Positions 20,360-53,890 of a stretch of 57,245 nt of DNA are shown piece after piece (positions within the stretch are counted from its first letter, which is position 1; the number at the start of each line of letters is the position of its first letter). Made by a program: the position numbers and the translations under genes. The notes below the pieces were generated by a model that saw nothing but the letters and a program-made list of their open reading frames with translations, did no database searches and was not told where the DNA came from. The DNA is taken from positions 1 through 57,245 of the forward strand of contig DATFKK010000163.1 of NCBI GenBank assembly GCA_035268685.1. Direction: 5' to 3'. This DNA comes from Candidatus Krumholzibacteriia bacterium. Lineage in GTDB: Bacteria > Krumholzibacteriota > Krumholzibacteriia > JAJRXK01.

Positions 20360-21141
20360 CCGTTCCCGCTCTCGGGCTCGGAACGGTGAAGATCGGACGC
20401 AACCGCGACGTCAAGTATCCGCAGGGGTTCGACCTGCCCGACGACGCGGCCGTCGAGCGGCTGCTCGAGACCGCCGTCGAGGAGGGCGTGGTGCTCTGGG
20501 ACACCGCGCCGGCCTACGGTGCGGCCGAGGAGCGCCTGGGTCCGTTCGTGGCCCGGCACCGGGAACGGCTGGTCCTGTGCACCAAGGCGGGCGAGGAATA
20601 CGACGGCGAGGGTTCGCGGCACGCTTTCGACCGGGCATCGCTGACCGCATCGGTGCACCGCAGCCTGCGTCGCCTGCGGACGGATGCCATCGACGTCCTG
20701 CTGCTGCACTCCGACGGACGGGATCTCGAGATCCTGGATGACAGTGACGCACTGGACACGATCGCCCGGCTGCGCGACGCCGGTGACGTGCGGTTCGCCG
20801 GGATCTCGGCGAAGACGGCCCTGGGGATCGAGCGAGGCGGAGCGTGTCTGGACGTCGTCATGGCGCCGTTCGGACCCGACCATCCCGAACTCGGGGACAT
20901 GCTCCGGAAGGTCCACGGCGGAGGAACTGGAGTGCTGGCGATCAAGACGCTGGGGCAGGGACATGCCGTCGATCGCGGCACCGGCGACACGGCGGATCCG
21001 GTCGAGGCTGCGCTGGAGTCCGTCCTGAGACCCGGTTTCGTGGACTGTGCGGTCGTCGGAACCCGGAGCGCTGCACACCTGCGACACGCCGCGGCCGCGG
21101 TGCGCCGGATCGTCGGGCGAGCGAGCGGGAGCGCGTCATGA
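20326..21141 (+). CDS. Aldo/keto reductase
   Basis: A 271-residue AKR barrel protein with LGRTGLTVPALGLGT at the start. The full catalytic tetrad is visible: Asp59 and Tyr64 in WDTAPAYG, Lys87 in LCTKAG, His128 in LLLHSDG. AKRs reduce aldehydes or ketones with NADPH. Start GTG 20326 has GGGAGG 7 nt upstream and lies inside the end of the FAD gene. The pairing with that oxidoreductase suggests a two-step redox modification of the same or a related compound; the compound is unknown. Confidence 0.82.
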   Translation: MDRRELGRTGLTVPALGLGTVKIGRNRDVKYPQGFDLPDDAAVERLLETAVEEGVVLWDTAPAYGAAEERLGPFVARHRERLVLCTKAGEEYDGEGSRHAFDRASLTASVHRSLRRLRTDAIDVLLLHSDGRDLEILDDSDALDTIARLRDAGDVRFAGISAKTALGIERGGACLDVVMAPFGPDHPELGDMLRKVHGGGTGVLAIKTLGQGHAVDRGTGDTADPVEAALESVLRPGFVDCAVVGTRSAAHLRHAAAAVRRIVGRASGSAS

Positions 21142-22760
21142 CCGTGCACGAAGAGACGTACGACGCACAGGGCCGACCCCGGTCCAAGCTCCTGCCAGAC
21201 GACAACGTCACGCTGGCGCTGGCCCTGACCACGCTGCTGGCGCTGCTGTTGCGACTGTTCCGGCTGGGCCACCAGAGCCTGTGGGTCGACGAACTGATGA
21301 CCATCCGCCAGGGCGCCGTGCCCGGAACGACGCTCTGGCAGCAGTTCCTGCACGACACCCAGAATCCTCTGCCGATGGTGATCGTGACCCTGCTGGGTTC
21401 GGTGTCGGAGCACGAGGCGTGGTTGCGGATGCCGGGGGCGCTCCTGGGGGCGTTGAGCATCCCGATCTTCTTCGAGGTGGTGCGTCGGATCGCGGACGCG
21501 CGGACGGCGCTGCTGGCGGCGATGCTCCTGGCGATCCATCCCATGCACATAGACCACTCGCAGGAAGTACGTGGCTACGCCTTCCTCGTGTTCTTCGGTC
21601 TGGCCGCCACGTGGATCGTGCTCGACGCGGGGACGCGCCTGTCGTGGGCCCGCATGCCGTGGCTCGTGCTGACGGGGGTGGCTGCCGGTCTCAGCAATCT
21701 GCAGGGTCTCTTCTGGATGGCCGGGCTGGCGCTGGGAATCGTGGTCAGCGGCCGGTATCCGGTACGCACGTGGGGACGCTGGGCGATTCCCTTCGTCCTG
21801 ATCCTCGTGGTGCTCACTCCGTGGTGGAGCCTGAGCCTGGGAGTGCACGAGACGGGTCGACTGCTGCCCGAGGCCGAGACCGGCGAGCCGCTGCGCGGCG
21901 AGAGCACCTTCACGCCGTGGGCCTTTCCGTACGCGGGGCTCGTTCTGTCGATGGGAAGCAGTCTGGGGCCGAGTGACGACGAACTGCACGAGGAGGTGAC
22001 GACGGGAGGCGGTCTTTCGTTGGACGCCGACGACCTCGCGATCGTCGGGATCGCGGCGCTGCTGGTGGTGGCGCTCGCGTGCCTGGGCCTGCGGGCGTTG
22101 GGGCGGCGTTCGTGGGAGCTGTTGGCCTGGGCGTCGGTGGCGATCGTAATGGCAGGGTTGTTGGCGGCCCGCAACGTGAAACCATTCAACCCGCGCTACG
22201 TGATCACCGCCCTGCCGGTGTTGCTGGTCTTCGTCGCCGCCGGATTGAATCGCCTGCCCGTTCGTTGGGGTCTCGTGCTCCTCCTGGTGTGGATCGGACT
22301 CACCGGGGTTTCCCTGCAGCGGATGTGGTTCGATCCCGAGCACGTGCACGAGGACGTGCGCGGCGCCGCGCGGCTCATCGCGAACCGCGAGGGTCCGGAC
22401 GACGCGATCCTGGTCCCCACCGTGCGTCACGTCTTCGATTTCTACTATCGCGGCGAGAGCCCGCGTTCGGGCATGCAGTTCCGGCGCGCGATGCCGCCGG
22501 ACGAGGTCGACGAAGCTCTCGAGCGGGTGGGCGAGGGGCGCCGGTTCCTGTGGTACGTGAAGTCACGTCCCTGGTTCGGCGATCCCGAACGGCGCATCGA
22601 CGAGAGCCTCCGGCGGCGCCACGAGCAGATTTCCCGGTTCGAGATGCCCGGAGTCGAGGTGTACCTCTTCGACCGGTCGGCGGAGCCGACGGCGCCGGAG
22701 GAGAGTTCCGCGGAGGGTGAGAGCGGGAACGCGGTCCCGGATTCGGTGCGGGTCGATTGA
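21138..22760 (+). CDS. GT39/PMT-like integral-membrane glycosyltransferase
   Basis: A 540-residue membrane protein with about ten hydrophobic helices between residues 24 and 390 and a C-terminal soluble domain. The first luminal loop carries QSLWVDELMTI, with the Asp-Glu pair typical of polyprenyl-phosphate-sugar-using GT39/ArnT-type enzymes, and HPMHIDHSQEVRGYA follows later. Such enzymes add a sugar from a lipid-phosphate donor on the periplasmic side, as ArnT does to lipid A. The start overlaps the AKR stop (ATGA). It is the last of the tightly coupled genes. Confidence 0.8.
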   Translation: MTVHEETYDAQGRPRSKLLPDDNVTLALALTTLLALLLRLFRLGHQSLWVDELMTIRQGAVPGTTLWQQFLHDTQNPLPMVIVTLLGSVSEHEAWLRMPGALLGALSIPIFFEVVRRIADARTALLAAMLLAIHPMHIDHSQEVRGYAFLVFFGLAATWIVLDAGTRLSWARMPWLVLTGVAAGLSNLQGLFWMAGLALGIVVSGRYPVRTWGRWAIPFVLILVVLTPWWSLSLGVHETGRLLPEAETGEPLRGESTFTPWAFPYAGLVLSMGSSLGPSDDELHEEVTTGGGLSLDADDLAIVGIAALLVVALACLGLRALGRRSWELLAWASVAIVMAGLLAARNVKPFNPRYVITALPVLLVFVAAGLNRLPVRWGLVLLLVWIGLTGVSLQRMWFDPEHVHEDVRGAARLIANREGPDDAILVPTVRHVFDFYYRGESPRSGMQFRRAMPPDEVDEALERVGEGRRFLWYVKSRPWFGDPERRIDESLRRRHEQISRFEMPGVEVYLFDRSAEPTAPEESSAEGESGNAVPDSVRVD

Positions 22761-22785
22761 CCGACCCGGAACGGTGCGCTAGCCT
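22757..22785 (+). promoter_or_regulatory. Putative promoter on the GT39 stop codon
   Basis: TTGACC (22757-22762), a 17-nt spacer and TAGCCT (22780-22785). The TGA stop of the GT39 gene (22758-22760) is part of the -35 box. It would start a transcript about 73 nt before the ATG of the next gene. Confidence 0.5.
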
Positions 22786-22864
22786 TGATGCGTACACCAC
22801 GGGCGTCGGCCTCGAGCGCCGTGTCGCCGCCCTCGCCGGCCCGCACACCCTGGCACCGTCATCC

Positions 22865-23587
22865 ATGACCGCCGCGCCCGAGACCTCCAGATCGTCTCCC
22901 GTGCCCCGCGAATCCGCGTTGCGGGAGTGCTCCGTGCCCATTCCGTCGCGCTTCGACACGCTGCGCAGGGAGCTCCGGGGCCAGTGGGCCACCGAACTCT
23001 GCAAACGGGTCGTCGACGTCGTCGCCGCGATCGCCGGGCTACTGCTGTTCCTGCCCCTCCTGCCCTTTCTGGCCGTCGTGATCAAGCTGGAGTCGAGGGG
23101 GCCGCTGCTCTTCCGTCAGACCCGCATCGGTCGCGATGGGCACCCCTTCACCTGCTACAAGATCCGATCCATGGTGCAGGACGCGGAGGGGCTGAAGGAC
23201 AAGTACGCGCATCTGAACGAGGCCGACGGGGCGGCCTTCAAGATCCGCCAGGATCCCCGGATCACCCGCGTCGGGCGCTTCGTGCGGCGGAGCTCGCTCG
23301 ACGAATTCCCGCAGTTGCTCAACGTGCTGCGCGGTGACATGTCGATCGTCGGGCCCCGGCCACAGATCCCGGCCGAGGTGGCCGCGTACGAGGAGCGCCA
23401 CAAGGCCCGGCTGCTGGTGAAACCGGGCATCACGTGCCTGTGGCAGGTCAGCGGGCGCAACGACGTGGACTTCGAGGAGTGGATGCGGCTGGACCGTGAA
23501 TACGTGGAACGGCGCAGTCTGGCCCTGGACTTCTCGATCCTCCTTCGTACCCTTCCCGCGGTCATCCATCGCCGCGGCGCGTACTGA
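22865..23587 (+). CDS. Monotopic phosphoglycosyl transferase (WbaP/PglC-type sugar transferase)
   Basis: A 240-residue protein with one reentrant hydrophobic segment (about residues 48-72) followed by the conserved core: RQTRIGRDGHPFTCYKIRSM, the catalytic SLDEFPQLLNVL (Asp-Glu pair), MSIVGPRPQIP, and KPGITCLWQVSGRN. It transfers a sugar-phosphate from a nucleotide sugar to undecaprenyl phosphate, starting a glycan on the cytoplasmic face. It lacks the four N-terminal helices of WbaP. ATG 22865 was preferred; a TTG at 22757 that overlaps the previous stop would add a low-complexity tail and lie within the promoter. Confidence 0.88.
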   Translation: MTAAPETSRSSPVPRESALRECSVPIPSRFDTLRRELRGQWATELCKRVVDVVAAIAGLLLFLPLLPFLAVVIKLESRGPLLFRQTRIGRDGHPFTCYKIRSMVQDAEGLKDKYAHLNEADGAAFKIRQDPRITRVGRFVRRSSLDEFPQLLNVLRGDMSIVGPRPQIPAEVAAYEERHKARLLVKPGITCLWQVSGRNDVDFEEWMRLDREYVERRSLALDFSILLRTLPAVIHRRGAY

Positions 23588-23624: not shown

Positions 23625-24557
23625 ATGAGCAGCTCCACCGGCAACCCGACGCGGCCGTCGCGCTGGCGTGTCTACGTCGACTTCACACGGCCGTTCACGC
23701 TGTGGCCTCCGGCGCTCGGAATGGTCAGCGGCGGGGTCACGGCGTGGGGCGCGGCCGGTACCAAGGTCAGTGACGACCCGGTGATCCTCGTGGTGAACGT
23801 CTTCGTCGGCGCGCTGATGGCTGCCGTGCTGAACGCCGCGAGCAACGGGATCAACCAGATCTACGACCTGCCCCTCGACGCCATCAACAAGCCGAAGCGT
23901 CCACTGCCCAGTGGGACCATGGAGGTCCGGGAGGCGAAGCAGCTCACGGCGATCCTGTACGTCGTCGCCCTTGCGCTGGCTGCCTTCGTCAACTGGATGT
24001 GCTTCGTCCTGGCCGCCGCGGCCGCAGCACTCACCTGGGCCTACTCGGCGCCACCGTTCCGCACCAAGCGCGACGCGATCGGAGCCAATCTCACGATCGC
24101 GATCCCGCGCGGCCTCATGTTGAAGGTCGCCGGCTGGACCACGGTCAAGGCCTTCGACGCCGTCGAGCCTTGGTACATCGGATCCATCTTCTTCCTGTTC
24201 CTGCTCGGGGCCGCCACGACGAAGGACTTCGCCGACATGAAGGGCGACGAGGCCCATGGGTGCATGACCCTTCCCGTGAAGTACGGCGTGAAGAAGGCAG
24301 CGTGGATGATCGCACCCTTCTTCGTGCTGCCCTTCGCCATGATCCCGATCGGCGTCGCCACCGGCATCCTGACGGGCAATGCGCTCTTCCTCGATCTCAT
24401 GGGGCTGGCTCTGGCGGTATGGGGCGTGTACACGGTGTGGTTGCTGGTCCGACGGCCCGAGGAACTCGCCACGACCGAGAACCATCCTTCGTGGACGCAC
24501 ATGTACCTCATGATGATGGCCCTGCAGATCGGGTTCGCCCTGGCCTACGTGGTGTGA
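23625..24557 (+). CDS. UbiA-superfamily prenyltransferase (chlorophyll-synthase / DGGGP-synthase type)
   Basis: A 310-residue protein with eight or nine transmembrane helices. Two Asp-rich Mg-diphosphate motifs are present: NQIYDLPLDAINKPKRPLPS (Asn77, Asp81, Asp85) and DFADMKGDEAHGCMTLPV (Asp201, Asp204, Asp208). The second motif with GD...TLPV resembles enzymes that use geranylgeranyl or phytyl diphosphate (ChlG, DGGGP synthase) rather than UbiA or protohaem IX farnesyltransferase. The acceptor is unknown. The next genes are acpS and two isoprenol-kinase-like genes, which could supply its donor. A start with GAGG lies 11 nt upstream. Confidence 0.85.
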   Translation: MSSSTGNPTRPSRWRVYVDFTRPFTLWPPALGMVSGGVTAWGAAGTKVSDDPVILVVNVFVGALMAAVLNAASNGINQIYDLPLDAINKPKRPLPSGTMEVREAKQLTAILYVVALALAAFVNWMCFVLAAAAAALTWAYSAPPFRTKRDAIGANLTIAIPRGLMLKVAGWTTVKAFDAVEPWYIGSIFFLFLLGAATTKDFADMKGDEAHGCMTLPVKYGVKKAAWMIAPFFVLPFAMIPIGVATGILTGNALFLDLMGLALAVWGVYTVWLLVRRPEELATTENHPSWTHMYLMMMALQIGFALAYVV

Positions 24558-24568
24558 GGAGCACGGAA

Positions 24569-24955
24569 ATGATCGTGGGCATCGGAGTGGACGTGTGTGA
24601 CACCGCACGGGTGCGGGACCTGATCGAGCGTTACGGCGATCGGGTGATCCGTCGCCTGTTCACCGAGGCGGAGGCCGCACGGTGCCGGAATCCGCGGCGC
24701 ATGCACGAATGCTTCGGGGGCCGATTCGCGGCGAAGGAGGCCACGCTGAAGGCGCTCGGCACCGGCCTCTCGAACGGCATCGGGTGGCGCGACGTCGAGC
24801 TGGTGTCCGGGGAAGCGCAACCTCCACGGATCACACTGCACCGGCGTGCCCGCGAGATCGCCGACCTTCGCGGAGTGACGGGCTCGCACGTGACGATCAG
24901 TCACGACGCCGGCATCGCGGTGGCCGTGGTCATCCTCATGGGCGAGCCCCGATGA
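24569..24955 (+). CDS. acpS: AcpS, holo-acyl carrier protein synthase
   Basis: A 128-residue phosphopantetheinyl transferase of normal AcpS length. It has MIVGIGVDVCDTARV with the metal ligand Asp8, and FAAKEATLKALGTG with Glu57 and Lys60-type residues, then HVTISHDAG near the end. It attaches 4'-phosphopantetheine from CoA to apo-ACP. GAGGAG lies 7 nt before ATG 24569. It is embedded between the prenyltransferase and an isoprenol kinase-like gene, overlapping the latter by 4 nt. Confidence 0.95.
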   Translation: MIVGIGVDVCDTARVRDLIERYGDRVIRRLFTEAEAARCRNPRRMHECFGGRFAAKEATLKALGTGLSNGIGWRDVELVSGEAQPPRITLHRRAREIADLRGVTGSHVTISHDAGIAVAVVILMGEPR

Positions 24956-25632
24956 GCGCCTTCCTCGACGATCTGGACGCGATGGCGATCTCGACGGTCT
25001 ACGTGCTGTCGGTGCTCGGCCTCGCCGAGTTCGCGCGACGGCGTGGAATGCCGCGGACGAACACGCGAAAGATCGTGCACGTGGGGATCGGGACGTGGGT
25101 GATCCCGACCTTCCTGCTGTTCGACCACCGTCTGTGGGCGGTGATTCCGCCCGCATGCTTCGTGGTGGTCAACGCGCTGAGTTTCCGCTTCCACCTGATC
25201 CGCAGCGTCGAGGGCGAGACCGCGAATGTGGGCACGATCCTGTATCCGATCAGCGTGGCGGCGGCCCTGGGGCTCTTCTGGACTCATCCATGGCCCGCGG
25301 TGGGGGCGGCGGCGATCCTCGTCATGGCCTGGGGGGACGCGGCCGCTTCGCTGATCGGGCGGCGCCACGGCCGTCATGTCTACCGGGCCTGGGGCCACCC
25401 GCGGACCCTGGAGGGAAGCGCGGCCATGTTGGTGGTGGGAGTGGCCGGCATTCTGGTGGGTTTCGTGTCGTTGGGGCGGCCGATCGACGGTGGCGTGGTC
25501 GCGGCTGCCGCGCTGGCCGCGGCCGTGGGAACCGCACTGGAGTCGATCTCGTTGTGGGGCTTCGACAACCTCCTGGTGCCGGCGGGGGTGGCCGCCACGC
25601 TCGTGCTGACCTTCGGGAGCGTGTGGGGGTGA
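24952..25632 (+). CDS. Phytol/dolichol kinase-like protein (SEC59/DGK1/VTE5 family)
   Basis: A 226-residue protein with six or seven transmembrane helices. Family marks are TRKIVHVGIGTW near residue 40, NALSFRFH, and MAWGDAAASLIGRRHG with HPRTLEGSAAM near residues 125-160. These are the conserved CTP-dependent kinase segments in VTE5, SEC59 and DGK1. Such enzymes phosphorylate phytol, dolichol or diacylglycerol. Neighbour logic (UbiA upstream, DUF92 downstream) favours an isoprenol substrate, as VTE5 with VTE6 makes phytyl diphosphate in plants. Some members are annotated as phosphatidate cytidylyltransferase, an alternative here. ATGA overlap with acpS. Confidence 0.8.
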   Translation: MSAFLDDLDAMAISTVYVLSVLGLAEFARRRGMPRTNTRKIVHVGIGTWVIPTFLLFDHRLWAVIPPACFVVVNALSFRFHLIRSVEGETANVGTILYPISVAAALGLFWTHPWPAVGAAAILVMAWGDAAASLIGRRHGRHVYRAWGHPRTLEGSAAMLVVGVAGILVGFVSLGRPIDGGVVAAAALAAAVGTALESISLWGFDNLLVPAGVAATLVLTFGSVWG

Positions 25633-26363
25633 CCGACGTCGCAACGACCTGGGCGACGGCCGTGGCCGTGAACCTCGTGCTCGGGGGACTGGCCTGGTGG
25701 CGAGGTGCCGTCAGCCGGAGCGGGTTCGTCGGCGGTGCCCTGATCGGGACGCTGATCCTCGCACTGGGAGGGGGCGGCGCCTATCTCACCCTGTGCGCCT
25801 TCTTCGTCGTGGGAACGGCAGCCACGCGCCTGGGCTACTCGAGGAAGGCCCGTGCGGGGCTGGCCCAGGAGGAGAGGGGACGACGGGGAAGTCGGCACGC
25901 CCTGGCGAACTGCGCGACGGGGACCGTCCTCGCGGTGTCCATGGCGTTCTGGCCCGCGATCGCTCCGGCGGTGGGCCTCGTGGCGGCCTTCGCGACCGCC
26001 GCGAGCGACACCCTGGGCAGTGAGATCGGTCAGTTGTACGGCCGGCGCCCCTACCTTCCGACCACGTTCCGGCCCGTGCCTCCCGGGACCGAGGGCGCCG
26101 TGTCCCTCGAGGGCACACTGGCGGGCGTCCTGGGGTCGACGGCCCTCGGAGCACTCGGTTGGGCGAGTGGGATGTTCCCACCCCTCGGAATCGGTGTGGT
26201 CGTGATCGCCGCGTTCGTGGGGACCACCGTCGAGAGCTACGTCGGGGCGATCTGGGGCCGCGAGGCCCGGATCGGGAACGAGGCGATGAATTTCCTGAAC
26301 ACGCTGGTGGGTGCAGCGGTCGCGGTGCTCATCGTGTGGCCGCTGGGCTGGGGGCGTCCGTGA
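25629..26363 (+). CDS. DUF92/TMEM19 family membrane protein (VTE6 phytyl-phosphate kinase-like)
   Basis: A 244-residue protein with six or seven transmembrane helices. It has the DUF92 marks RSGFVGGALIGTLILALGG near residue 30, TRLGYSRKARAGLAQE with RRGSRHALANCATG, ATAASDTLGSEIGQLYG around residues 125-140, and a final NEAMNFLNTLVGA. The plant member VTE6 converts phytyl phosphate to phytyl diphosphate. Here it directly follows a VTE5-like gene with a GTGA overlap, which is the order of the two reactions. The enzymatic role is inferred from family and context. Nothing convincing is coded between its end and the promoter at 26575. Confidence 0.82.
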   Translation: MTDVATTWATAVAVNLVLGGLAWWRGAVSRSGFVGGALIGTLILALGGGGAYLTLCAFFVVGTAATRLGYSRKARAGLAQEERGRRGSRHALANCATGTVLAVSMAFWPAIAPAVGLVAAFATAASDTLGSEIGQLYGRRPYLPTTFRPVPPGTEGAVSLEGTLAGVLGSTALGALGWASGMFPPLGIGVVVIAAFVGTTVESYVGAIWGREARIGNEAMNFLNTLVGAAVAVLIVWPLGWGRP

Positions 26364-26574
26364 GGACGGAACCGGATCGGCAGGGCTCCGGACGCGGCCG
26401 GGGGACGGTTCCCGACGGCGACCGCGCCCGGACCGGCGCGCGGCGCGACGTCCCCGGGCCAGGACGACACATCGGGGGGCACATCGGGTGACGACCCTCC
26501 GCAATCGGCCACGGACGACCGCAACTGTCCCAGTGCGAACGGCTTTCGCGAACACACGGGCGCGTTTCCGGGGC

Positions 26575-26604
26575 TTGTTCGCCTCGGTACGGGTCTGCTA
26601 GACT
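26575..26604 (+). promoter_or_regulatory. Putative promoter of the ExeA/BY-kinase-like operon
   Basis: TTGTTC (26575-26580), an 18-nt spacer and TAGACT (26599-26604). It is the best promoter-like match in the 730-nt gap after the DUF92 gene and would give a leader of about 480 nt before the ATG at 27094. The 210 nt upstream of it (26364-26574) hold no gene that I can support. Confidence 0.5.
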
Positions 26605-26610
26605 CAGAAC

Positions 26611-27093
26611 TCCACGGGAGAACGACGAAGCCGACGGGGGGACGCGGCGTCGTTCGAGCTACCCACCCGATCCACGCGGTCGCGCGGCACAGAGCCCGCG
26701 ATCCGTGAGCACGCCAACCCCAACCGGAGGGTCGGCCAGGCACGAGGCGATCGAAATCGACCGGAGCCGCGCGAAGCGCGGTGATGGCGACCGAGAGGAC
26801 GAGCAGGACCGGGAACCCACGGGTGCCCCCGCTCGTTCACTCGTGCCGAGTGGACGCGAAGTTGCTGGTGACGGCACCGGGCAACCGACGAGGGGATCGC
26901 CGGCGTGGATCGGTCGACGACCGGTCGCGGCGGCGCAGGGTAGAAGGTCTTCACGATCATGATCCGGATTCCGCGTCGCGGTCCCCGCGGGGTCTGAACC
27001 GGCGGTCGTCGAATCCGATGCAACGGTTCGGTTCCGGCGAGTGCCGGGGCGCGCGAGCCGGATGGCGTCGAGGATCGTGCCAGAGGTCGGCTG
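26611..27093 (+). other. Long 5' leader without a supported gene; several hairpins
   Basis: This is a 480-nt stretch between the promoter and the ExeA-like gene. Short open frames exist but their sequences are Arg/Pro/Gly-rich shadows without family features or ribosome sites. Visible RNA structure: GAACGACG/CGTCGTTC (26620-26627 with 26648-26655), CCGCGC-GAA-GCGCGG (26767-26781), and a small CGAT-CGAA-ATCG hairpin just before it. No known riboswitch consensus was recognised. It may regulate the downstream genes or contain a small RNA. Confidence 0.4.
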
Positions 27094-28578
27094 ATGTACG
27101 AACAACACTTCGGATTCCACACCATGCCTTTCCGGGTCGTTCCGAGCCCGTCGTTCCTGTTCCCGTCGGACACGCACGAGGAGAGCCGGGCGCGGATCCT
27201 GTACGGAATCCGGGAGAACCGCGGATTCGTGGTCGTGACCGGTGCCGTCGGGCTGGGCAAGACCACGGTCTTGCTGTCGGTGCTGGAGGAACTCGAGGAC
27301 TCGCTCGAGATCGCGCTCGTGGTTCATCCGGTGCAGTCGTTCCGCGAGCTCCTGCGGCTCGTCTGCCTCGAGTTCGGAGTGCAGTTCGCCTCCGACGACG
27401 AGGTGACGATGCTCTGGGAGCTGAATCTCTTCCTGGTCGAACGGTTGTCCGAGGGCAAGAACTGCGTGCTGATGATCGACGAGGCGCAGAATCTGCCGGT
27501 CGAGGTCCTCGAGCGGGTCCGGACCCTGAGCAACCTGCAGACCGAGAGTTCGTCGTTGCTGCAGATCGTGCTCGTGGGCCAGCCCGAGCTGAGGACGAAT
27601 CTCGACGACCCGCGTTTGCCGCAGCTCCGTCAGCGGGTCGGCGTGTGGCACGAGATCGGCCCATTGGACCGCGAGGACACCCGGAGCTACATCCGGCATC
27701 GCCTGAGGCTGGCCGGGGCGAGCGCACCCGAGGAACTGGCCCCGGAGTCCGTCTGCGATCGAGTCTTCTCGGCCACCCGCGGAATTCCCCGGCTGGTGAA
27801 CCAGGTCTGCGACACCGCACTGGTGATCGCCTACGGACGCGACAGGAAGGTCCTCGGGACCGACCACGTCGACGAGGCCCGGCGCGAGTTGCGGCTGGAC
27901 GTTGCGCCCGCTCCGAAGGCGCCGAACGCGAAGGCGGCGGCGGTCGAGGCACCCGATCCGGCCCCGTCCCCGCCCGAAACGGTCCCGGCCGACTCCCCGA
28001 CGGCGACACGTCGGCACCAGTGGCTGCCGCCGGTCGCCGCGGTCGTGATCCTGGCACTGTTGGTGCTCGCTGCCTTCCGATTCGGGTTCGTGCCGGACTG
28101 GCCGCTGTCGTGGGCCACCGCGTCCGACGAGTCGGGGTCCGAGGTCGAGGTGGTGGCCCCCGATCCGACTCCGGCCGCCGCGCAGAGCGCCGCGACGCGA
28201 TCCGTGCCGGAGTCCTGGCTCGCGTCGGTGTCCGACGTCCGGTCCTGGCGCGAACAGGGGCGTCCCGTCTACACCGCCTACGTGGCGAGTTTCCGCGACC
28301 CCGATGCGGTCGCCCGGTTCGCGGACGACCTCGTCGTCGAGAACGAGGACTGGACCGTCCCCCTCTTCGTCGAGACCACCGGAGACGACCCACCCTGGCA
28401 CCGCGTCTACGGTGGCGCCTACGCCGACCGCTCGGACGCCCAGCGTTTCGCCAGGAAGATCAAACAGGACGGAAGTGTGGACTTCGCACACGTGAAGAGA
28501 CTGGCGCCCACGGCCGAGGACATCCTACCTTCGGTGTTCACGGCTCCCGCCGAATCCAACCCGGGAGAGTCGGGATGA
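27094..28578 (+). CDS. ExeA/GspA-type AAA ATPase with transmembrane helix and C-terminal SPOR domain
   Basis: A 494-residue protein in three parts. Residues 1-270 are an ExeA-type AAA domain starting MYEQHFGFHTMPFRVVPSP, with Walker A GAVGLGKTT (Lys56), Walker B VLMIDEAQNL and the sensor region LVGQPELRTNL. A Pro/Ala linker and one transmembrane helix (about 310-332) follow. The periplasmic end (about 390-475) is SPOR-like: VYTAYVASFRDPDAVARF and VYGGAYADRSDAQRFARKIK. SPOR domains bind denuded peptidoglycan. Related ATPases accompany exopolysaccharide or type II secretion assembly. The following gene, a BY-kinase-like protein, overlaps by 4 nt. The function in glycan export is an inference. 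Confidence 0.82.
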   Translation: MYEQHFGFHTMPFRVVPSPSFLFPSDTHEESRARILYGIRENRGFVVVTGAVGLGKTTVLLSVLEELEDSLEIALVVHPVQSFRELLRLVCLEFGVQFASDDEVTMLWELNLFLVERLSEGKNCVLMIDEAQNLPVEVLERVRTLSNLQTESSSLLQIVLVGQPELRTNLDDPRLPQLRQRVGVWHEIGPLDREDTRSYIRHRLRLAGASAPEELAPESVCDRVFSATRGIPRLVNQVCDTALVIAYGRDRKVLGTDHVDEARRELRLDVAPAPKAPNAKAAAVEAPDPAPSPPETVPADSPTATRRHQWLPPVAAVVILALLVLAAFRFGFVPDWPLSWATASDESGSEVEVVAPDPTPAAAQSAATRSVPESWLASVSDVRSWREQGRPVYTAYVASFRDPDAVARFADDLVVENEDWTVPLFVETTGDDPPWHRVYGGAYADRSDAQRFARKIKQDGSVDFAHVKRLAPTAEDILPSVFTAPAESNPGESG

Positions 28579-39701: not shown

Positions 39702-39777
<76 letters not shown>

Positions 39778-39804
39778 TTCAGTCTTCTAGCCTGAACGGA
39801 CTTG

Positions 39805-39879
39805 GGCGGCATAGCCAAGTGGTAAGGCGACGGACTGCAAATCCGTTATTCCCCGGTTCGAATCCGGGTGCCGCCTCCA
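39805..39879 (+). tRNA. tRNA-Cys (anticodon GCA)
   Basis: A 75-nt cloverleaf: acceptor GGCGGCA/TGCCGCC, anticodon stem ACGGA/TCCGT with loop CTGCAAA, discriminator U as usual for Cys, CCA encoded. It lies 27 nt after tRNA-Gly and is probably cotranscribed with it. Confidence 0.97.
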
Positions 39880-39955
39880 GCTTCGGCCGTGCCTCCGGCA
39901 GGCCACCGACGGTTCGATCGATCGTGCGCGACACCGATCACCGTCGGGCGAGATC

Positions 39956-39992
39956 GACGGGCGATGCGGAGGCATCGCCCGTCGTTCGTTGT
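39956..39992 (+). terminator. Hairpin terminator between tRNA-Cys and tRNA-Leu
   Basis: A perfect 12-bp stem GACGGGCGATGC/GCATCGCCCGTC with a 4-nt GGAG loop (39956-39983) is followed by GTTCGTTGT. The tail is only moderately T-rich, so termination may be partial. The tRNA-Leu gene starts 11 nt later with no clear promoter of its own. Confidence 0.6.
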
Positions 39993-40003
39993 CGGACCCG
40001 GGT

Positions 40004-40092
40004 GCCCGGGTGGCGGAACCGGTAGACGCGCTGGACTTAAAATCCGGTGGGGCTCACGCCCCGTGAGGGTTCGAGACCCTCCCCGGGCACCA
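40004..40092 (+). tRNA. tRNA-Leu (anticodon TAA)
   Basis: An 89-nt class II tRNA with a long variable arm: acceptor GCCCGGG/CCCGGGC, anticodon loop CTTAAAA (anticodon TAA), variable stem GGGGCTCACGCCCC, discriminator A and encoded CCA. Confidence 0.97.
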
Positions 40093-45730: not shown

Positions 45731-45807
45731 GGGCGATTAGCTCAGCTGGTTAGAGTGCTTGCTTGACATGCAAGAGGTCACTGGTTCGAGTCCAGTATCG
45801 CCCACCA
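45731..45807 (+). tRNA. tRNA-Val (anticodon GAC)
   Basis: A 77-nt cloverleaf: acceptor GGGCGAT/ATCGCCC, anticodon stem CTTGC/GCAAG with loop TTGACAT, discriminator A, encoded CCA. Confidence 0.97.
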
Positions 45808-53698: not shown

Positions 53699-53890
53699 CG
53701 AGAGGAGTCACCCTGCCGGGTGCGTGATGCGCCAACAGCGCTGAGCCAACACTCCAACCACGGAAGCCCGCCGTCCGGGGCGTGAGAGCGAGTCCGCAAG
53801 GGAAGGCTCGATCGTCTCGGTAGGGCATCCACCTGGTCGAAATCGGTTCGAGCCGGTTTCGCGCACACGGCTCGGCGGGGCCTCCTCTCG
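53699..53890 (+). ncRNA. ssrS: 6S RNA (SsrS)
   Basis: A 192-nt segment whose ends form a perfect 9-bp closing stem, CGAGAGGAG (53699-53707) with CTCCTCTCG (53882-53890). Next inside, CCTGCCG pairs with CGGCGGG, and GTGCG with CGCAC. The 3' side has CATCCACCTGG followed by a TCGAA-ATCGG-TTCGA hairpin and CCGGT. This matches the E. coli 6S 3' arm (CATTCACCTTGAACC...), the small hairpin beside the central bubble. 6S RNA binds sigma-70 RNA polymerase by mimicking an open promoter. Its place after zapA is the classical one. The exact ends are estimated. Confidence 0.85.

Follow-up and report, generated by a model that had tools for sequence, protein, structure and literature searches.

Which lipid would a bacterium build, and perhaps recycle, with a UbiA-type prenyltransferase encoded beside two proteins that resemble the phytol-salvage kinases VTE5 and VTE6 of plants? 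The question is raised by a 57,245-nucleotide stretch of a Candidatus Krumholzibacteriia genome (assembly GCA_035268685.1, contig DATFKK010000163.1; hereafter, the window). This Krumholzibacteriota genome comprises 4.59 Mb in 202 contigs and is 99% complete; its closest relatives are metagenome-assembled Candidatus Krumholzibacteriota. The initial annotation of the locus described four closely packed or overlapping genes, and these open reading frames (ORFs) are indeed present in the frames and order it gave. All four lie on one strand. The UbiA ORF opens with ATG and its stop is 11 bases from the start of AcpS, the VTE5-like ORF (ATG start) overlaps the AcpS stop by four bases, and the DUF92 ORF (GTG start) overlaps the VTE5-like stop by another four. 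No promoter or terminator pattern was found in the module region.

23625..24557, + strand: UbiA integral membrane prenyltransferase of an orphan subfamily nearest chlorophyll synthase and DGGGP synthase (PF01040, 2e-39; own clade)
24569..24955, + strand: holo-ACP synthase AcpS, probably a passenger (PF01648, 2.2e-18; TIGR00516; the sole AcpS of the genome)
24952..25632, + strand: putative CTP-dependent isoprenol kinase of the SEC59/VTE5 type (41-homologue profile, AlphaFold2, hhalign)
25629..26363, + strand: putative isoprenyl-phosphate kinase of the DUF92/COG1836/VTE6 type (PF01940, 2.6e-50; TIGR00297, 6.5e-54; AlphaFold2)

The reading that we favour, with a probability of roughly 0.6, is that the kinase pair would make an isoprenyl diphosphate and that UbiA would transfer its isoprenyl group to a further acceptor, probably an envelope lipid.

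Linkage of the putative kinase pair to one UbiA clade

The kinase pair and UbiA form a conserved unit. Scanning with a profile of the UbiA clade yielded 80 loci; their record titles name Acidobacteriota, Eisenbacteria, Wallbacteria, Coatesbacteria, Planctomycetota and other groups. DUF92 is encoded in 70 of these 80 genomes and lies in the UbiA locus itself in 58, nearly always directly 5′ of UbiA; among the other 22, it is found elsewhere in the genome in 12. The linked DUF92 is mostly part of a fused ORF of ∼430–480 residues, of which the first 200 form a VTE5-type domain. At least 190 residues precede DUF92 in 46 of the 58 linked ORFs, and the 38 fused ORFs that were aligned all contain the SEC59/VTE5 domain, invariant residues included.

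The same picture emerged from 247 Acidobacteriota genomes drawn evenly and independently of that scan. Of these, 107 encode DUF92 and 73 a member of the UbiA clade. Without exception the 73 also encode DUF92, which puts the linkage far beyond what chance would give. The two genes lie within 5 kb of each other in 53 of the 73 genomes, and within 500 bp on the same strand in 47. The DUF92 frame spans at least 380 residues in 71 of the 73, as a fusion would give. Linkage in relatives, which the initial annotation had put forward as a check, is thus kept in both samples. Gene content, order, fusion and co-occurrence are all observed directly.

The arrangement differs between phyla: UbiA-AcpS-VTE5-(SDR)-DUF92 in Krumholzibacteriota, SDR-[VTE5-DUF92]-UbiA in Acidobacteriota and DUF92-UbiA-SDR in two Planctomycetota. 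This variation argues that the linkage is not merely one inherited arrangement. The SDR, an NAD-dependent dehydrogenase, is a third partner; a count from the locus listing puts it inside the module at about 32 of the 80 loci. In Acidobacteriota it precedes the fused kinase; two Krumholzibacteriota have it between their VTE5 and DUF92 genes, and the two Planctomycetota loci have it downstream of UbiA. Its best scores are with the HpnA, SdmB and OleD models, which concern lipid alcohols and ketones and would fit an isoprenoid substrate. The window holds no SDR of this kind, and its genome no clear ortholog (best match, 29% identity).

AcpS, which had been counted as a member of the module, does not belong to it: it is the only copy in the genome and adjoins UbiA only in the window's own family, and in other phyla it is not beside UbiA. 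AcpS was therefore rejected as a partner and is probably a passenger in the gene run. One genome of the same genus (G001) lacks AcpS, the linked VTE5-like gene and DUF92 altogether, with its UbiA on a 3.1 kb contig. Because loss of the essential AcpS is unlikely and the UbiA contig is short, the missing kinases there probably reflect an assembly gap rather than gene loss. G001 does encode a different SEC59-like protein (L129:1510-2112; 200 aa, 62.9 bits with the VTE5 profile), whose gene is flanked by one resembling MeaB and another resembling an aromatic amino-acid hydroxylase.

The putative kinases

Neither Pfam nor NCBIfam gives any match for the VTE5-like protein, so its naming rests on other tests: an alignment profile of 41 homologues, a fold model and profile comparison together revealed its family. 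Nine positions of the profile are invariant; G128, D129, A132, G136, G155, E197, D205 and N206 are conserved in 41/41 sequences. The AlphaFold2 model (pLDDT 90.8) finds its best solved folds in CDP-DAG synthase (4q2e/4q2g, probability 0.87–0.89), in a weak match (E 0.13, TM 0.34–0.40). Dolichol kinase and COG1836 have themselves been assigned to the CDP-DAG synthase superfamily (PMC5898192). By hhalign, the protein aligns with a relative's SEC59-like protein at 98.6% (E 1.3e-15, 172 columns), as against 70.7% (E 3.8e-5, 77 columns) for a relative's CdsA.

The DUF92 protein matches PF01940, and its TIGR00297 score of 183 falls below the cut-off of 205.85. Its D-T..S-E motif (D127, T128, S131, E132) is invariant in 28 sequences. 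A fold search with its AlphaFold2 model (pLDDT 94.4) gave no clear match, CDP-DAG synthase appearing only at rank 6, and a PDB sequence search with the profiles of both kinases returned nothing useful. A 2011 paper connected COG1836 with phytol phosphate (PMC3223725), and Pfam and NCBIfam carry DUF92/TIGR00297 only as a family without known function. We regard the two proteins as a putative SEC59/VTE5-type CTP-dependent isoprenol kinase and a putative COG1836/VTE6-type isoprenyl-phosphate kinase.

The fold match raises the alternative that both proteins are cytidylyltransferases forming CDP-lipids, as does a PF01148 hit in one relative (20.5 bits, below the cut-off). The CDS signature is absent from both window proteins and present in a relative's CdsA (L130), which is encoded separately, and hhalign prefers the SEC59-like protein to CdsA. 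CDP-lipid synthesis is thus very unlikely. The initial annotation had named a placement of the SEC59-like gene among diacylglycerol or CDP-forming enzymes as fatal to its proposal; by these comparisons the gene sides with SEC59-type rather than CDP-diacylglycerol-synthase-type proteins.

UbiA and its acceptor

Both Asp motifs described in the initial annotation were located in UbiA (N74..N77-Q78..D81...D85 and K200-D201..D204..G207-D208) and are invariant across 21 homologues. Among solved structures, UbiA is nearest to DGGGP synthase (6m31, the best at 1.2e-23) and chlorophyll a synthase (9sas). No curated NCBIfam cut-off is reached among the matches listed: the protein stays below those for ChlG/BchG (122 bits vs 313; 101 vs 212) and EboC (54 bits, cut-off 250), and none of the best 25 NCBIfam families listed is a PRK12324-type polyprenyl phosphoribose synthase. 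Phylogeny, a further check proposed at the outset, places it with homologues of many phyla in a separate clade (support 99/98), in a tree of few reference sequences and long branches. Neither the genome's three other UbiA proteins nor the GGGP-transferase-like ones found in the same class fall within this clade. UbiA proteins of other same-class families (L017, L018, L022, L025–L027, L031) score ∼156–179 bits with GGGP geranylgeranyltransferase models, below the cut-offs.

The three paralogues match an MqnP-like quinone prenyltransferase, heme o synthase and decaprenyl-phosphate phosphoribosyltransferase. The gene for the MqnP-like protein adjoins an MqnA-like gene at another site in the genome, and the DPPRS-like paralogue (C45; G000, L004 and L012) has a PRK12324-type match of 2.7e-63. 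Since menaquinone, heme and phosphoribosyl lipid are served by these paralogues, the module UbiA probably acts on an acceptor other than the menaquinone ring, heme or ribosyl phosphate. A phosphoribosyl-UbiA role, as in three-component pentofuranose systems (PMC11127046), was considered and rejected, as the separate C45 protein fits it better.

UbiA might instead be an aromatic prenyltransferase, quinone- or tocochromanol-like, supplied by the kinases. Its canonical two Asp motifs would suit such a role, as would a weak similarity to the homogentisate phytyltransferase hidden Markov model (95.5 bits, cut-off 226) and the plant VTE5/VTE6 pair, which feeds tocopherol and phylloquinone synthesis (PMC9782597). 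However, the closest solved relatives are O-prenyltransferases, the MqnP-like UbiA beside the MqnA-like gene already offers a quinone enzyme, and the conserved neighbourhood showed no gene of an aromatic pathway. We therefore consider an aromatic acceptor quite unlikely.

The initial annotation had also entertained the possibility that UbiA is the DGGGP synthase of an archaeal type of ether-lipid pathway, and suggested a search for PcrB. The match to 6m31 speaks for this. Yet the window genome has no PcrB/GGGP synthase, none of the 27 module genomes has a PcrB above cut-off (archaeal controls were positive), and the UbiA clade lies apart from the GGGP-transferase-like proteins. The absence of PcrB led us to discard archaeal ether lipids, which are extremely improbable here. 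A phytyl chain made in house likewise lost ground: geranylgeranyl reductase is missing from the window genome (best match 29 bits, partial, cut-off 158.8), which makes home-made phytyl unlikely. The reductase exceeds its cut-off in 9 of the 27 genomes searched.

Because DGGGP synthase and chlorophyll synthase form C–O bonds, our best guess for the product is an O-prenylated lipid of the envelope or membrane. In Wallbacteria, UbiA is followed by a conserved protein of 400 aa (L050:3252-4460, L062:8899-10101) that bears a cysteine motif of the C..C..C type and may hint at what the acceptor is. A similar-looking membrane protein of ∼245 aa follows UbiA in three other loci, two titled Eisenbacteria and one ‘bacterium’ (L046:1627-2397, L048:5943-6668, L049:8860-9645); the one examined had no Pfam or NCBIfam match.

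Genomic setting, predicted route and known systems

Upstream of UbiA the window encodes a DUF3108 protein, an FAD oxidoreductase, an aldo/keto reductase and two genes of glycan type:

20844..22760, + strand: PMT/ArnT-like membrane glycosyltransferase ORF (PF13231, 1.6e-07)
22757..23587, + strand: bacterial sugar transferase, directly upstream of UbiA (PF02397, 1.4e-65)

Most of these upstream genes are conserved in relatives of the family. The sugar transferase holds the equivalent position in L008, L009 and L014/L043, and a gene similar to the PMT/ArnT-like one occurs in L008 and L009. Judged from their translations, Wza- and Wzc-like ORFs directly follow DUF92 in these last two relatives; such export genes, like the SDR, seem to have been moved or lost in the window. 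There, DUF92 is followed by a short interval (26364–27093) and then an AAA/SPOR ATPase gene at 27094. The window also carries a 6S RNA (RF00013, 77.5 bits) and four tRNA genes (53707–53885, 39702–40092, 45731–45807).

This glycan setting suggests another role for the kinases, namely phosphorylation of a long polyprenol of the undecaprenol type as glycan carrier for an exopolysaccharide, with UbiA a neighbour pursuing its own task. The sugar transferase and the PMT-like glycosyltransferase directly upstream fit this role, as do the Wza-/Wzc-like ORFs of two relatives and the pairing of archaeal COG1836 with uppS (PMC5898192). Against it, a monophosphate carrier needs no second phosphorylation to the diphosphate, and UbiA never occurs without DUF92 in the 247 Acidobacteriota genomes. 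The module's neighbours in Acidobacteriota, again read from translations, include FolC, LptD and sugar SDRs, not the window's exopolysaccharide set. A polyprenol substrate is therefore unlikely. The Krumholzibacteriota and Acidobacteriota settings both concern the cell envelope, and since they differ while the core persists, the core is the functional unit.

Prenyl transfer to an envelope lipid, our favoured reading, can be set out as a three-step route, in which the reactions, the chain length and the acceptor are all our inferences. The VTE5-like protein would convert an isoprenol and CTP into the isoprenyl phosphate, the DUF92 protein would use a second CTP to give the diphosphate, and UbiA would move the isoprenyl group onto the acceptor, probably through formation of a C–O bond. 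The first two steps draw on plant precedent (PMC9782597) and published predictions (PMC3223725, PMC5898192); the third draws on the UbiA family and its motifs. The substrate would most likely be a C15–C20 isoprenol such as farnesol or geranylgeraniol, supplied by turnover of the prenylated product or as free isoprenol from elsewhere. Where present, as in many relatives, the SDR perhaps acts on the isoprenol or on the prenylated product. Family comparison and conserved linkage thus support the core of the initial annotation, a two-kinase isoprenol module in reaction order coupled to UbiA; AcpS membership, ether lipids and in-house phytyl fell away.

Several observations weigh against this assignment. 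The module's activities and its lipid are predictions from the genes. Besides the weak fold match, the window's VTE5-like protein shares only about 21–32% identity with the fused domains, and its SEC59/VTE5 assignment was made by profile comparison with SEC59-like and CdsA proteins of relatives. Position 151, four residues ahead of the invariant G155, is R in the window and two family relatives (Krumholzibacteriota) and K in 38/41 homologues; because R151 replaces a near-invariant K, we say that the protein would work like a phytol kinase, not that it is one. DUF92 was not found in 10 of the 80 UbiA-clade genomes, in three of which UbiA lies at or near a contig end. The Fisher test for co-occurrence in Acidobacteriota (p ∼1e-36) ignores shared ancestry, and the dependence is one-sided: 34 of the 107 Acidobacteriota genomes with DUF92 lack this UbiA clade, so DUF92 also serves other routes.

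A 2022 review noted that isoprenol-salvage genes were known only in plants and cyanobacteria, although the activity is wider (PMC9782597). The same review describes E. coli as devoid of isoprenol kinase activity. A conserved, fused kinase pair tied to one UbiA clade offers a concrete, cloneable set outside these groups, gives DUF92/TIGR00297 a firm bacterial context, and opens a route to the UbiA acceptor by gene removal and lipid analysis. More tentatively, and with rather less than even confidence, these genes may together make and recycle a novel class of prenylated envelope lipid across Acidobacteriota, Krumholzibacteriota, Eisenbacteria and some Planctomycetota, by means of an often bifunctional kinase pair, a private UbiA and the SDR. 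Such a recycled lipid would be a bacterial counterpart to the chlorophyll–phytol cycle of plants.

Plant and cyanobacterial phytol salvage, with VTE5 (phytol kinase) and VTE6 (phytyl-phosphate kinase, COG1836), is the precedent for the kinase pair (PMC9782597). The same two families are predicted to act in sequence here, and their predicted product would likewise feed a UbiA-family prenyltransferase. In contrast to plant and cyanobacterial salvage, the window genome lacks geranylgeranyl reductase, its VTE5-like sequence is divergent, and most relatives have the kinases fused and encoded close to a UbiA of one orphan clade. Two-step phosphorylation of isoprenols is also known elsewhere as an activity. 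A SEC59-COG1836 fusion with a predicted isoprenoid kinase role was described in archaea in 2015, for example Methanosarcina Mbar_A3310 (PMC5898192); it has the same domain pair in the same N-to-C order, but the conserved partner of archaeal COG1836 is uppS, whereas that of the module is the UbiA prenyltransferase with the SDR. No open-licence paper was found that links the SEC59-COG1836 pair to this UbiA clade. ChlG and DGGGP synthase, the closest solved relatives, share the canonical Asp motifs, yet the module UbiA scores far under their family cut-offs, forms a separate clade and has no GGGP synthase to accompany it. EboC/Ubi-297 of the Ebo cluster and DPPRS/PPPRS are likewise orphan or glycan-linked bacterial UbiA enzymes; the module UbiA differs from EboC by its low model score, and from DPPRS in that the genome's DPPRS-like UbiA is a separate gene.

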